Virus record (IMG/VR): IMGVR_UViG_3300037189_014320
Span: 1 to 20,101 of that record
From: a virus
Strand: one strand, 5' to 3'
Length of the DNA: 20,101 bases
In this document: piece after piece, positions 6,252-14,489 of the stretch
Numbering within the stretch: position 1 is the first letter of the stretch
Layout of the letters: the number at the start of each line of letters is the position of its first letter
Translations under genes and position numbers: made by a program
Notes under the pieces: model-generated
What the model saw: only the letters and a program-made list of their open reading frames with translations
Told to the model about the DNA's origin: nothing
Database searches by the model: none

Positions 6252-7790
6252 TCAACCTCCCGCGAATTCGAAGGTTTCCATCAGGTCGCCCTCGGAAACC
6301 GCATCGCGGATCTGCTCAAGGACGCCAAGCTGCTGCTCCTGGACGTCGCCGGAACCGCCACGCATCAGGCGGAACATCTCGGCAATGCCTTCCTTTGAGC
6401 GGCTGTCGGTGGCCCTTAGGACCTCTTGCGACTGCCCGGTGAACGCTGCCGGCTCAGTCGCCTGAGACTTCACGGCAGATCGGTCGGCAGTGTTCTTCGC
6501 GCTGGCCGCCTCGCTGGCCGCTTTGAGGGAGTCCGAAACCATCGTGGCCAACGGCCCTTTCTGGGCCTGGGCGACAGGTCCGCCGTCGCCGAACGCTCGT
6601 TTGAAATCCTCGCCGGCCGCGATCCCGCCTTCTGTCATGGCGGTGAACATTGAGTTGTTGAACGCGTCCGCGCCCTTGATGAAATTGTCGACGCCCAGGT
6701 CGACGCCGACACGCTTTGCCAGGAAATCGGCACCCTTCAGCAAGGCCGTCACAGGGGCCGTCAGGCCCGCAATACCGGCGGCCAGCACAACCTTGAGCGC
6801 GTTGCCGACGCCAGACAGGAACGCAGCTACACGGCTTCCCAGCTCGAACACGCCGGCCCACTGGGCGCCGACGCTCGAGACAAACTCCCAGGCCGACGTG
6901 AGCCCTCCCAGGAACGAGTCGGCGATCGACGCCAGGAACTCGGCACCGGCCATGATCCCCTCGCCGATGAACTGGCCGATGTTGGCCCCGCCGATCCCGC
7001 CGATCAGGTTCGTGAATGTATCTGTGACGGACTGGATCGCCGGTGCCAGGTAGGCCACCACCTGCTGCACGACGCCCTGTATGGACGCGTAGGCCCGCGT
7101 GAAGGCGTCGTTCATCTCCTCGACGGCAACGCCCTGCTCGTTCGTCAGGGCCATTCCGAACTTGTTGGCCTCCTCGACGGCCTTGCGGATCGAGCCGGCG
7201 CCGCCCTCAAAGAGCGGAAGCAGCTCGGCCCCGCTCTTGCCAAACAGGCCAATCGCAGCTCGAGCACGCTCGGCCGGCGTCGGAAGGCCGGCGATCGCGT
7301 CGGCCATCATCTGAAACCGCTCGGCGGGCGTCTTGTTTTGCAGCTCGTCGACTGACAGGCCCACGCCGGCAAGGGCCTGCTGGGCGAGGGCGGAGCCTTG
7401 GGCGGCCTTCACGAACGCCACGTCGGCCTTGGTGGCCGCCTTGCCGATCGTCTCCATTGAGACGCCAGCCAGGTCGCCGGCCAGCGACAGGCCAGCCAGC
7501 TCGCCGTATGTCATGCCGAGCTGACGCGACAGCTTCGACGTCTTGTCGATGCCCTCGGCCTGGCCTTTGGCCATGCTGACAAACGCCCTGGCGGCGGACG
7601 CGGCGCCGCTGGCGACCTGGCCGAAGAGCTGGGCGCCCTGGATGGCCGCCAGCATCCGCATCCCGGACCGCAGGCCGGCAACGTCGCCGGACAGCTTCTT
7701 GAACGACGACGACGCCTCCGCGACCCCAGCCTTCAGGCCGGACGTCGACGCGGTGAATACGGCGGATACTTTGCCGATCGTGGCTGCCAT
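6252..7790 (-). CDS. Tape measure protein
   Basis: This is a 512-aa protein that sets tail length and leaves the tail during DNA ejection. I prefer ATG 7788-7790, which has AGGG upstream and overlaps the preceding stop by one base; GTG at 7791-7793 is the alternative and adds one residue. Its N-terminal part is typical (IGKVSAVFTASTSGLKAG, then helical LAAIQGAQLFGQVASGAASAARAFV). ARAAIGLFGKSGAELLPLFE near residues 177-195 is a hallmark of tape measure proteins. Hydrophobic stretches lie at about 238-300 and 320-352. The C-terminus ends in an acidic helical region (QLGVLEQIRDAVSEGD). It is short for the class; at about 0.15 nm per residue, a tail of very roughly 75 nm is expected. Confidence 0.93.
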   Translation of the reverse strand: MAATIGKVSAVFTASTSGLKAGVAEASSSFKKLSGDVAGLRSGMRMLAAIQGAQLFGQVASGAASAARAFVSMAKGQAEGIDKTSKLSRQLGMTYGELAGLSLAGDLAGVSMETIGKAATKADVAFVKAAQGSALAQQALAGVGLSVDELQNKTPAERFQMMADAIAGLPTPAERARAAIGLFGKSGAELLPLFEGGAGSIRKAVEEANKFGMALTNEQGVAVEEMNDAFTRAYASIQGVVQQVVAYLAPAIQSVTDTFTNLIGGIGGANIGQFIGEGIMAGAEFLASIADSFLGGLTSAWEFVSSVGAQWAGVFELGSRVAAFLSGVGNALKVVLAAGIAGLTAPVTALLKGADFLAKRVGVDLGVDNFIKGADAFNNSMFTAMTEGGIAAGEDFKRAFGDGGPVAQAQKGPLATMVSDSLKAASEAASAKNTADRSAVKSQATEPAAFTGQSQEVLRATDSRSKEGIAEMFRLMRGGSGDVQEQQLGVLEQIRDAVSEGDLMETFEFAGG

Positions 7791-8113
7791 CACTCGCCCT
7801 GCATCTGTTTTGCGAACGCCGGAATCTTTGCCAGCTCGGCCTTCAGCTCCTCAAACGTCTGCGGCTTCTCGCGGTAGCTCGGAAGGAACCGCTCCTCGGC
7901 CGTCGGATCAGGCTTCGCCCCGAAGGCCGCGGCCGTCACAAGGGACGACCTGGCGGCCATCCGCCACGGGTCGCCGAATGGCTCGATCCGCCAGGCGGCC
8001 ATCCAGAGCTTGAGTTGCCGAACCGTCAGTCGTCTCTTCCAGGCCTCCACGTTTGGTATTCCGAGCGACAGGGCCAGCCGGTAGATGAACACGTCGTCCG
8101 GCCGGCCCCTCAT
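7790..8113 (-). CDS. Tail assembly chaperone, lambda GpT-like (downstream partner)
   Basis: This 107-aa reading frame begins at ATG 8111-8113 if translated on its own. It starts MRGRPDDVFIYRLALSLGIP, then RRLTVRQLKLWMAAWRIEPF and GDPWRMAARSSLVTAAAFG, matching the minor tail protein T / DUF4035 type of tail chaperone (x-SL-x-E-W-x-A-x-x-R-x-x-P-F-G-x-x-R). It is in the -1 frame relative to the gene before it, which carries a canonical slippery site, so it is probably also made as the C-terminal part of a 222-aa G-T fusion. GAGGG upstream of the ATG may allow independent starts as well. It sits between the tail tube genes and the tape measure, where this chaperone always lies. Confidence 0.85.
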   Translation of the reverse strand: MRGRPDDVFIYRLALSLGIPNVEAWKRRLTVRQLKLWMAAWRIEPFGDPWRMAARSSLVTAAAFGAKPDPTAEERFLPSYREKPQTFEELKAELAKIPAFAKQMQGE

Positions 8114-8119
8114 TTTCCC
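8071..8119 (-). promoter_or_regulatory. Programmed -1 ribosomal frameshift signal between the two tail chaperones
   Basis: The last two sense codons of the upstream chaperone are GGA AAA, preceded by G and followed by TGA, so the heptamer G GGA AAA (8113-8119) fits the X XXY YYZ rule exactly. It differs from the lambda G-T site (GGGAAAG) only at its last base. The downstream frame is the -1 frame. Four bases after the heptamer, an 11-bp stem can form between 8098-8108 and 8071-8081 with one G-U pair and a 16-base loop. After slippage the next codon is ATG of the downstream frame. Confidence 0.85.
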
Positions 8120-8457
8120 TCGAGCTCGTCGATCTCCTTGTCGGTGATCAGGAGCAGCTTCTGGCCCGCCTCCCATATCTCGTGCAGCGCCCGCGCGTTC
8201 TTTTTGCCGAGCCTGGCCACGTCCGCGTCGGACGTGAACAGCCGATTGCCGTCGGCATCGCACAGCAGCAGGCTCGCCAGCTTGGCCCGCCAGCTCGCCC
8301 GCTTGCCCTGGTTGGCGGCGCAGAAGATCTCCCACTCGTCGCGGACGTCTGCCGTCGGGTCGAGCAGGTAGACGTCCTTCCCCCACGCCTTGATGTGCAG
8401 CAGCTGCGGCGGGCGGATGTCATCGAGGGCCAGGATCTCGTCGGCGGTGAGCGGCAT
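8110..8457 (-). CDS. Tail assembly chaperone, lambda GpG-like (upstream partner)
   Basis: This is a 115-aa protein from ATG 8455-8457, with AGGGAA about 7 bases upstream. An earlier in-frame ATG at 8505 would lie inside the preceding gene and is not preferred. The sequence begins MPLTADEILALDDIRPPQLL, then a beta segment with HIKAWGKDVYLLDPTADVRD and a helical end (LHEIWEAGQKLLLITDKEIDEL), as in tail chaperones of the G family that coat the tape measure protein. Its last codons form the slippery site. Identification rests on position, size, the frameshift signal and the T-like partner more than on sequence similarity. Confidence 0.85.
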   Translation of the reverse strand: MPLTADEILALDDIRPPQLLHIKAWGKDVYLLDPTADVRDEWEIFCAANQGKRASWRAKLASLLLCDADGNRLFTSDADVARLGKKNARALHEIWEAGQKLLLITDKEIDELEGK

Positions 8458-9218: not shown

Positions 9219-9614
9219 CTACTCCTGCCAGCGGATTTGATACGTGTGCTCGACCATAAACGTCGGCTTGTCCTGGCCATCAAAAAAGACCGGGTCGCCG
9301 TCGCGCTCCTCCAGGAGCAAACACAGCCGGATTGTGATTCCGGAGGCCGTGCCGTTGAAGTTGTGCATGGCGGCCCGAACCGAGTCCGCAAGCGTCTTCG
9401 CCTGGGAATACGTGGCGGCGTAGATCTCGAGCTGGAACGTCCCGGCCGGGTTGACGTTCAACGGGGCGTTGTACATGACCGTCGCCCTGTCAGTGCCTGT
9501 CCGCCCGTAGATGACGTACGGCAGGGCTGCCGATTCCGGCGCGATCAGCGGGAAGGCTTGGCAGCTCGCGGCGGCCTCGATGGCGGCCTTCGCCCATTGC
9601 TCTGGGAATGGCAT
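9219..9614 (-). CDS. Tail terminator / completion protein, DUF3168-like
   Basis: This is a 131-aa protein from ATG 9612-9614, overlapping the preceding stop by one base (TGATG). Its pattern fits the DUF3168 tail completion family: an N-terminal helix, PYVIYGRTGTDR at 32-43, FQLEIYAATYSQAKTLADSV at 60-79, and a final VEHTYQIRW at 121-129 after a beta hairpin. These proteins cap the tail tube and join it to the head. Gene order agrees: it lies between the gp10-like protein and the tail tube proteins. Confidence 0.82.
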   Translation of the reverse strand: MPFPEQWAKAAIEAAASCQAFPLIAPESAALPYVIYGRTGTDRATVMYNAPLNVNPAGTFQLEIYAATYSQAKTLADSVRAAMHNFNGTASGITIRLCLLLEERDGDPVFFDGQDKPTFMVEHTYQIRWQE

Positions 9615-10114
9615 CAGAACGGGCTCCCAGGGTTCTTGCCGGCAGCCAGCTCCTGCGATGCCTTTTCCAGCGCCGCCGCCATCTCTCCAGACAGGTTCGT
9701 GGCAGCTTTGCCTTTGTACGCTTGCATCACGCCAGCGACGATGCCGCGAGGCCTGACGTATTTCGTGCCGAATTCAAGATAGATAGCCTTCCTGCTCTGC
9801 GGGCCGTACTTGTATCCGAGCACCCCAACAACAAATCCGTCAGCATTCCTGCCTTTGTAATAGGCCTTCGCAACCGCAGCTCTGCGGAGTTCCCCGGATC
9901 TCCGCATTTTCAGGACGCCATTTTTATTTGCTTTCATGACTCTGCCGACTGGTGTAGCGGCCTTGAGAAGTGGAACGCCTGGCCGAAGCGAGCGTTTCAT
10001 TGCGGCGACAAGATGCTTTTTTGCAATATGGCGAGGAAGAGTCGCGTATCGCTGCATGAGCGACGAGATCTCTCCGGACATTTGCTGCCAGTTCAGCGTA
10101 ACTAAGTCGCTCAT
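9614..10114 (-). CDS. HK97 gp10-like head-tail protein
   Basis: This is a 166-aa protein from ATG 10112-10114 (ATGA overlap). The first half is helical and basic (IAKKHLVAAMKRSLRPGVPLL at 30-50, with TPVG at 54-57). The second half has the beta segment GFVVGVLGYKYGP and the family signature YLEFGTKYVRPRG at 112-124, followed by a helix to the end. This matches the HK97 gp10 / putative tail-component family that acts at head-tail joining. Local GC is below that of its neighbours (29 of 60 bases at 9901-9960), which may mean a different evolutionary source. Confidence 0.88.
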   Translation of the reverse strand: MSDLVTLNWQQMSGEISSLMQRYATLPRHIAKKHLVAAMKRSLRPGVPLLKAATPVGRVMKANKNGVLKMRRSGELRRAAVAKAYYKGRNADGFVVGVLGYKYGPQSRKAIYLEFGTKYVRPRGIVAGVMQAYKGKAATNLSGEMAAALEKASQELAAGKNPGSPF

Positions 10115-10443
10115 GTCGCCTTCTCGTCGCAGGTGAGCTCGTGCTCGTCGCGGTTGCCTTGCTCGACGACCGACGCGATATAGAGCAGCCGGTCGGACCT
10201 CGAGGCCCACCGGATCCGCATCTTCCCCGTAAGGCCCGGCACGTAGTGGCAGCGGACGACGAACGTGCCGACGCCGCCAATCTGTTTCCGCCGCTCCTGC
10301 TCGCTGTAGCTGATCGCCTGGACCGCGGCCCGCCTGGTGGCGAATGTCGCCCAGGTGGCCACAGGCTCGCCCAGGTTGTTTCGCGTCTCCGTTTCCTGCT
10401 CGACGACGACCGTCTCGCGGAGGATTCCGGCCGGCAGAGCCAT
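10111..10443 (-). CDS. Head-tail adaptor (SPP1 gp16-like)
   Basis: This is a 110-aa protein from ATG 10441-10443, with TGATG overlap with the preceding stop. It is an all-beta protein that starts LPAGILRETVVVEQETETRN and has the family pattern GEPVATWATFATRRAAVQAI (25-44), then HYVPGLTGKMRIRW and YIASVVEQGNRDEHELTCDE. This is the layout of head-tail adaptor (head closure) proteins that bind under the connector ring. It lies in the standard position after the gp6-like connector. Confidence 0.88.
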   Translation of the reverse strand: MALPAGILRETVVVEQETETRNNLGEPVATWATFATRRAAVQAISYSEQERRKQIGGVGTFVVRCHYVPGLTGKMRIRWASRSDRLLYIASVVEQGNRDEHELTCDEKAT

Positions 10444-13169: not shown

Positions 13170-13395
13170 CTGATTCACTCCACAGCCGGTACAGGTACAG
13201 GACGACGCATGCCCCGACGATCGATCCGACGACGCCGGCCGGGCCTTGTCCGAACGGCAGGCCGCCGGCGATCGAGCCGAGCACGCCGACGCCGATCGTC
13301 GGGATCCAGCCGGCCGGGACGTTCGCCGGCACGATGGCCTTTGCCACGCCGCCGGCAATCGCCCCCAGTAATGCCCAGTAGACGAGCGAGATCAT
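13159..13395 (-). CDS. GlsB/YeaQ/YmgE-like small integral membrane protein
   Basis: This is a 78-aa protein from ATG 13393-13395 (ATGA overlap with the peptidase stop). It reads MISLVYWALLGAIAGGVAKA, then GWIPTIGVGVLGSIAGGLPF, then GVVGSIVGACVVLYLYRL. These three glycine-rich membrane segments fit the GlsB/YeaQ/YmgE (transglycosylase-associated) family in size and pattern. The family's function is poorly understood. Directly downstream of a membrane-anchored peptidase, a role as a pore- or holin-like partner is a reasonable guess. Confidence 0.75.
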   Translation of the reverse strand: MISLVYWALLGAIAGGVAKAIVPANVPAGWIPTIGVGVLGSIAGGLPFGQGPAGVVGSIVGACVVLYLYRLWSESDAT

Positions 13396-14489
13396 TTATC
13401 CCCCTTGGCCATCCAGCCGTCGTTTACGAGTTCGCGGGCCTTGAACCCGTCGACCGATCCGATCACGAACGAGTCGCCCTGCGCCAGGATCGCCTCGGCG
13501 TCTCCGCGTGTGATCCAGAACGAGCCGTCGGGCTGGTCGACGGGATGCCTGCCGCCGCGTACCCAATTCGGACCCCAGCTGTTCATCACGAGCACGCCGT
13601 CGCGCGGGTGCTGCATCGGCGTCAGCGATCCCGGCAGATTGTTCTTCGCGTACTTCACGCCGATGACAACCATGCAATGCGCCCAGCTGCCGCTCCTCTT
13701 CAGGAACCCGTCGGCGTCTCTGTCCTGGCCCTTGAACCCGATGTTCGAGCAGATCGGCACGCACAGGCCGTTTTCGAGCGCCGCCGTCAGGCCTTGCCAC
13801 GTCTCGACCAGGGCGACGGCTCGTGCCGTGTGTTGGTTCGCCTCTTTGGCGAGCTGCGGCGACACGCCACGCGCGCCCCATTCCTTGGCTCGCGGGATCT
13901 CGTACTTCGTCAGGTCGACGTCGCCGTACTTCTGGCGGTACAGGATCCCGCCGTGGCCGTTCTTCAGGCCGGCCACCCAGCGTGCCGCGGCTGCTCCGTA
14001 TGAGCCGTCGGAGTAGCCCGCGAACGTCACCGGCGGGAGCCGGCCCTCGGTCCGGCTGCCGGCGTAGATTGGCTCGGTTGCCACCTCGAGCGGCGGCTCC
14101 GCCAGGCCGCCCTGGCACCAGTCGACGCACTGGCCGACGTAGCTTCCCATGCCCCAGCCGAACGATACACACGTCCCGATCTCGCCCTGGTTCCATGGCC
14201 CGTAGGGCGTGCCGTAGCGCGCCTGGTGGGCTCTTTCGGCGTAGCGGTACAGGTAGGCGTCTCGCCCCTTCGCGGCCGCCAGGACGTCCGGGGCGGCCTG
14301 ACGGAATGTCGGCTGCTCGAGCTCGCGGAGGAAAGCCCGCGTGCCTTCCGGGTTGGGCGTCCAGCCCATCTGGCGATCAGCGGCCCGGAGGGCCTTGTGC
14401 GTCAGGTGGTCGACGAGCGCTCCCAGGATCGCCGCGAACACGACGAACGCGACGGCGGACCACGTCCACGCTGCCTGGCGGTTGCTCAT
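13392..14489 (-). CDS. Membrane-anchored papain-like cysteine peptidase
   Basis: This is a 365-aa protein from ATG 14487-14489, joined to the preceding stop as TGATG. Residues about 8-26 form an N-terminal transmembrane anchor (WTWSAVAFVVFAAILGALV). The rest matches the papain (C1-like) fold: Q101 and C107 in NQGEIGTCVSFGWG with the exact papain spacing (Gln six residues before Cys), H271 in GSWAHCMVVIGVKY and N303 in VLVMNSWGPNW. The Cys, His and Asn of the triad and the oxyanion Gln are all present, so it should be active. It probably faces outside the inner membrane. There is no obvious propeptide, and no muramidase or amidase endolysin is seen in this window. A role in lysis or envelope breakdown is inferred, not shown. 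Confidence 0.88.
   Translation of the reverse strand: MSNRQAAWTWSAVAFVVFAAILGALVDHLTHKALRAADRQMGWTPNPEGTRAFLRELEQPTFRQAAPDVLAAAKGRDAYLYRYAERAHQARYGTPYGPWNQGEIGTCVSFGWGMGSYVGQCVDWCQGGLAEPPLEVATEPIYAGSRTEGRLPPVTFAGYSDGSYGAAAARWVAGLKNGHGGILYRQKYGDVDLTKYEIPRAKEWGARGVSPQLAKEANQHTARAVALVETWQGLTAALENGLCVPICSNIGFKGQDRDADGFLKRSGSWAHCMVVIGVKYAKNNLPGSLTPMQHPRDGVLVMNSWGPNWVRGGRHPVDQPDGSFWITRGDAEAILAQGDSFVIGSVDGFKARELVNDGWMAKGDK

Follow-up and report, generated by a model that had tools for sequence, protein, structure and literature searches.

A predicted lambda G/GT-type -1 frameshift with an abutting stop codon in the tail chaperone genes of uncultured siphophages

Introduction

Where the frame of a G-like tail assembly chaperone ends upon that of a T-like protein, as in the uncultured virus analysed here, it must be asked whether ribosomes slip from the first frame into the second to make a fusion, or whether the second is simply translated from an ATG of its own. 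The slippery sequence of lambda G/GT is GGGAAAG, and the mechanism is already well known in long-tailed phages, to which this locus appears to add a further case with a consistent small variation. The window, by which is meant the whole stretch of DNA that was analysed, corresponds to a single virus record of IMG/VR, 20,101 bases long.

The G/T junction of the window

The window carries a siphophage-like structural operon on its minus strand, in the order terminase, portal, prohead protease, major head protein, tail terminator, tail chaperones and tape measure. The upstream frame of the junction (Table 1) is a tail assembly chaperone that matches PHROG 344 'tail assembly chaperone' (E = 3.6e-14), as do all 13 members of the G alignment (A1), and the downstream frame, which lies in -1, belongs to the T family, matching PF06223 Phage_tail_T at 30.8 bits (cutoff 25.9) together with PHROG 337, each of which is matched by 12/12 members of the T alignment (A2). 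The pair lies between the major tail region and the tape measure gene, with the tail terminator upstream of G, and G, T and tape measure stand in lambda order, which bears out the initial annotation's placement of the pair at the genomic position of lambda G/T. No ORF of the window was identified by name as the major tail protein. A tape-measure-like ORF also follows T in 47 of the 49 distinct IMG/VR junctions described below, and the remaining two contigs end too early. None of 50,697 phage records matched the T protein, and the PDB, searched by sequence with profiles of both proteins, yielded nothing meaningful. Structure prediction was of too low quality to be used for either protein (mean pLDDT 52.4 for G and 64.5 for T). 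Two genome-contig scans directed at the host, one with the G alignment and one with the terminase, confirmed no relative.

Table 1. Coordinates of the junction and its neighbouring features in the window
Feature	Position	Strand	Basis
G-like tail assembly chaperone ORF, 115 aa + stop (MPLTADEIL...ELEGK)	8110..8457	-	PHROG 344
Slippery heptamer G GGA AAA, zero-frame phase X XXY YYZ	8113..8119	-	read directly
Zero-frame stop TGA, adjoining the heptamer without a gap	8110..8112	-	read directly
T-like frame (-1), 107 aa + stop, from ATG at 8113-8111; C-terminal half of the predicted G-T fusion	7790..8113	-	PF06223, PHROG 337
5' arm of stem	8098..8108	-	sequence + fold
16-base loop	8082..8097	-	sequence + fold
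3' arm of stem	8071..8081	-	sequence + fold
Tape measure protein, directly 3' of T	6252..7790	-	PHROG 9483 (E 9e-33)

On the minus strand the G ORF ends ...GAG CTC GAG GGA AAA TGA, and the -1 frame at the junction reads GGG AAA ATG AGG GGC CGG, or (G)-K-M-R-G-R. The initial annotation had described a slippery heptamer in codon phase, a TGA directly after it, T in the -1 frame and, four bases after the heptamer, an 11-bp stem with one G-U pair and a 16-base loop; all of this proved exact when the minus strand was read, and the lengths of the two frames (115 + 107 aa) agree with the 222-aa fusion that it had predicted. In the 25 ORFs of the window, three in-phase X XXY YYZ heptamers (Y = A or T) occur in 5681 positions, and the one at 8119-8113 is the sole one at a stop. 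The window on its own is moderate evidence for a frameshift, because the G and T frames overlap openly for 306 nt and because GAGGGAAAATGA resembles a ribosome-binding site followed by an ATGA start. A Shine-Dalgarno-like AAGGAG was noted by eye 14 nt before the heptamer, with GAGGA(A/G) in relatives; such upstream strings are possible stimulators, but Glu codons yield them anyway.

Conservation of the slippery heptamer

Relatives were found with two peptide patterns taken from central parts of G that are distant from the junction, and a search with T added no contig to the list so obtained. Two of the 130 loci were left out (L082 and L084, where the G ORF runs off the contig), and the remainder comprise 54 distinct junctions, with distinctness judged within 150 nt on either side: 49 from IMG/VR, the window included, and five from named phages. 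An in-phase X XXY YYZ heptamer is present where the frames meet in 49/49 distinct IMG/VR junctions, spelled A AAA AAC in 44 (43 adjoining the stop, plus L080), G GGA AAA in three and A AAA AAA in two, compared with 14 in-phase heptamers in the 10,458 positions scanned in the rest of their G and T frames. Loss of the heptamer from relatives that keep both proteins, the event on which the initial annotation had staked a lambda G/T-type frameshift, was seen in none of the 49.

The genomes are 63% G+C and use GAA for 24.7% of Glu and AAA for 18.3% of Lys (codon-usage figures for which one of the 49 loci, L001, the window's own, was read on the wrong strand), and Glu-Lys elsewhere is encoded by GAAAAA in 3/30 cases, making the heptamer spelling both costly and unexpected under the codon usage of these genomes. 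Synonymous diversity falls to 0.04 in the last three codons of G, against 0.35 in the gene bodies. On a tree of 47 rows, which omits L025 and L070, the heptamer changes spelling at least three times and always within its class, the identity of the stop changes at least 13 times and the exit codon at least 14 times. At L019 and L101 the T frame begins only after a TGA that immediately precedes AAA AAA, which leaves the heptamer as the sole place where a -1 shift from G is possible.

Among the named phages, Rhodococcus REQ1 and Shagrat are distant G homologues with separate ORFs annotated, and no canonical heptamer was seen by eye near the end of G in these two of the five named-phage records, which counts against the frameshift reading. 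In Jflix2 a G GGT TTC lies upstream of the stop, and the CDS is annotated as joined.

A hairpin downstream of the heptamer

The region from 8112 to 8053, in which 8108-8098 pair with 8081-8071, folds at -28.1 kcal/mol, against a shuffle mean of -20.7 (z = -2.3), and 5 of 200 shuffles were equally stable. Nine of the 11 stem pairs of the window are common to relatives, many of which have a short additional helix inside the loop; in the window this helix is weak. Across 32 gap-free relatives (31 distinct rows), the 13 pairs of the hairpin are formed in 96.3% of cells, as opposed to 23.6-55.8% when the hairpin is slid by one to three columns.

Covariation within the stem is weak, with an RNAalifold covariation term of -0.13, and it is thin because most hairpin pairs never vary: 10 of the 13 are invariant among the gap-free relatives. 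Double changes amount to seven cells in all, keeping pair 21-40 in two rows and pair 27-34 in five, while these pairs are broken in six and seven rows, respectively. Codon choice is better evidence for the hairpin than covariation, as synonymous diversity is 0.14 in the stem arms versus 0.37 in gene-body columns where the amino acid is invariant, and one in 20,000 random sets was as low. A divergent group with an altered T N-terminus (L067-L077, nine rows aligned) has a different, longer hairpin at the same place. A structured element thus lies 4-6 nt 3' of the heptamer, with synonymous change suppressed and the structure rebuilt in the divergent group, which suggests that the downstream structure is kept by selection and could serve as a stimulatory element. 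The alignment of relatives, to which the initial annotation had looked for conservation of both elements, returns a heptamer in 49/49 junctions and a hairpin that is either preserved or rebuilt.

The start of T and alternative readings

An ATG at the heptamer exit is found in only two of the 49 junctions, those of the window and of the near-identical contig 3300032318_001636, and is absent in the other 47. In L003, which is 97% identical to the window, TGA has become TAA and the ATG is gone, and the heptamer is kept. The commonest exit codon in the relatives is CTG, and 11 of 48 junctions (L025, where the contig ends, being left out) lack ATG, GTG and TTG alike over the whole span from where the T frame opens to T codon 20. 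The exit ATG can be understood as an automatic by-product, because the final A of the heptamer and the TGA together spell ATG, and the own start of T does not appear to be the conserved element of the junction. It is the relatives that decide for a frameshift, because the heptamer is kept in 49/49 junctions while the ATG is not. The initial annotation had also allowed for independent translation of T, and this holds as a possibility for the window phage but does not carry over to the group.

The window phage might accordingly do both, making the fusion by frameshifting while a certain amount of free T is started at the recently gained ATG, a combination that we regard as possible but somewhat doubtful. 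Both the window and contig 3300032318_001636 do combine heptamer, Shine-Dalgarno-like GAGG and ATG; the ATG, however, comes automatically wherever a heptamer with Z = A meets TGA and shows no sign of being kept, since three of the five Z = A junctions use TAA, and we know of no role for free T in lambda.

A second alternative is termination-reinitiation, in which T would be started at its own ATG within the ATGA overlap, with GAGG as ribosome-binding site, and no fusion protein would arise. The string GAGGGAAAATGA fits a Shine-Dalgarno sequence and start, and an IMG/VR scan for GARCTNGARGGAAAATRA showed how often such strings occur elsewhere: of 80 matches in 72 stretches, 76 have no G or T profile match and four do, and 59 of the 76 have ATG as the exit or next codon. 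The motif alone therefore cannot decide, because only 4/80 match G or T and the string doubles as a ribosome-binding site with an ATGA start; it is common at ordinary overlaps and less diagnostic in itself than the initial annotation implied, so GGGAAAATGA by itself should not be called a frameshift site. At the G/T junctions themselves, however, three of the four matching places, spelled G GGA AAA, lack the ATG because their stop is TAA. This, with the rarity of the exit ATG, its disappearance from L003, the usual CTG and the 11 junctions with no early start codon, makes reinitiation very improbable.

A scan for GARCTNGAAAAAAACTRA gave at least 120 stretches, and among the matches listed 70/120 match the G or T profile. 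Of the 50 others among the matches listed, 14 upstream proteins were compared with PHROGs, and eight fell in a tail assembly chaperone family, two in a 'tail length tape measure' family and four in none. A AAA AAC with an abutting stop, a context imposed by the query, was also observed at nine IMG/VR loci (L140, L147, L148, L156, L167, L168, L171, L177 and L186), whose tail proteins span PHROG families 344, 16513, 313, 8233 and 569.

Slippage of the polymerase on the A run, rather than of the ribosome, would be favoured by the seven consecutive A in most relatives (GAAAAAAAC) and the eight in two of them, but the clade of the window has GGGAAAA, with four A only, and conservation concerns the tandem X XXY YYZ form with its hairpin rather than the length of the run, which renders transcriptional slippage very improbable. 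A chance heptamer at a gene overlap, with which the window by itself is compatible given its long open overlap, is refuted by the conservation of the heptamer in all 49 distinct junctions, alongside suppressed synonymous change.

Proposed mechanism and comparison with known systems

The best explanation of the junction, to which we assign a probability of about 0.93 on comparative evidence, is that a siphophage tail chaperone gene undergoes -1 programmed ribosomal frameshifting of the lambda G/GT type. The majority of ribosomes would read G GGA AAA and end at the abutting stop, yielding the 115-aa G protein, and a minority, aided by the downstream hairpin, would slip back one base on the heptamer and continue through the T frame to give the 222-aa G-T fusion. 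The slippery class, its position and the conservation of the hairpin are features of the aligned sequences, whereas we infer that ribosomes slip here, how often they do so and what the two proteins do. By analogy with lambda, G would coat the tape measure protein, with G-T recruiting the major tail protein through its T part; in lambda, G and the G part of G-T are reported to bind the tape measure protein and T to bind the major tail protein, with a G : G-T ratio of ~30:1 (PMC5009743).

The junction resembles lambda G/GT and its counterparts in long-tailed phages (PMC5009743) in that a G-like chaperone ends in a -1 shift leading into a T-family frame (PF06223) directly before the tape measure gene, and differs in its heptamer (G GGA AAA here and A AAA AAC in most relatives), its abutting stop and its strong adjacent hairpin. 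A_AAA_AAC is described as far less shift-prone than A_AAA_AAG in E. coli (PMC5009743), and this may count against the frameshift reading. AAAAAAC, as in most relatives here, is the reported slip site of the phiCbK chaperone gp93/gp94 in Caulobacter phage, with GGGAAAC in Colossus (PMC3556154), and is reported or proposed for the tail chaperone of Paenibacillus phage Dragolir (PMC6003738), the likeness in these cases concerning the slip site alone. Closer parallels are the Streptomyces phages Dubu (MK937595) and phiSASD1 (NC_014229), which encode a G homologue (36.9% and 34.7% identity, respectively) with an in-phase G GGA AAC, an abutting stop, a joined CDS annotated and a tape-measure-like gene next, but which differ in the spelling GGGAAAC, in their weaker hairpins and in their hosts. 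The initial annotation expected most annotation to miss the fusion; these two records do include it. The conserved junctions of the relatives would confirm a textbook mechanism in a sizeable group of uncultured phages.

The abutting stop codon

The stop adjoins the heptamer in 48 of the 49 junctions, as TGA in 33, TAA in 15 and TAG in none; in the exception, L080, the stop after A AAA AAC is displaced 21 nt onward. The two abutting stops observed, TGA and TAA, are both read by RF2; TAG, which would alter a conserved Arg of T, may be missing for that reason alone. The authors of PRFect give mean heptamer-to-stop distances of 26 nt for their training phages and 36 nt for the Xu set (PMC10885494), and against these the abutting stop is the one unusual trait of the chaperone sites described here. 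The layout is not unique, because Dubu and phiSASD1 share it with G GGA AAC. In a control for peptide context, 36 stretches with GARGARCTSGAAAAAAAC and no following T were found, none of which matches the G or T profile; several resemble other chaperone-type frameshifts by eye, with the stop 18-21 nt on, and therefore the abutting stop would be a rule of this family and not of every site of the kind. A literature search found no paper devoted to the abutting stop in tail chaperones, which does not prove that none exists.

A stop directly after the shift site is also described for Rous sarcoma virus and prfB (PMC4373837), in genes unrelated to those here and, for prfB, with a +1 shift. The same source reports that a stop directly after the HIV slip sequence lowered -1 shifting on bacterial ribosomes and made it RF2-sensitive (PMC4373837), and because of this the G : G-T ratio is predicted to depend on termination. 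It may be speculated that the abutting stop is a regulatory part of the site, such that the slip takes place with a stop codon in the A site and frameshifting competes with the release factor; if this tentative proposal is true, the G : G-T ratio would report the termination capacity of the host. The junctions form a comparative set for the abutting stop and for A_AAA_AAC on bacterial ribosomes, with three heptamer spellings, at least 13 stop switches and two hairpin designs.

Other features of the window

Another ORF of the structural operon (13392-14489, minus strand) resembles, on visual inspection, a papain-type cysteine peptidase (GEIGTCVSFGWG ... HCMVVIGVKY ... NSWGPNW), a label that a Pfam and a PDB sequence search did not support. 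In the tail region, the ORF at 9614-10210 (minus strand) has an in-phase A AAA AAG at 10022, 399 nt before its stop, which is the strongest slippery class in E. coli. At 1605-2660, on the minus strand, a low-complexity tail-end protein combines GPTGPQG and AGSAGSAGSA with repeated NSLSIGTVTTGAAGSSAS units and has a collagen-like look.
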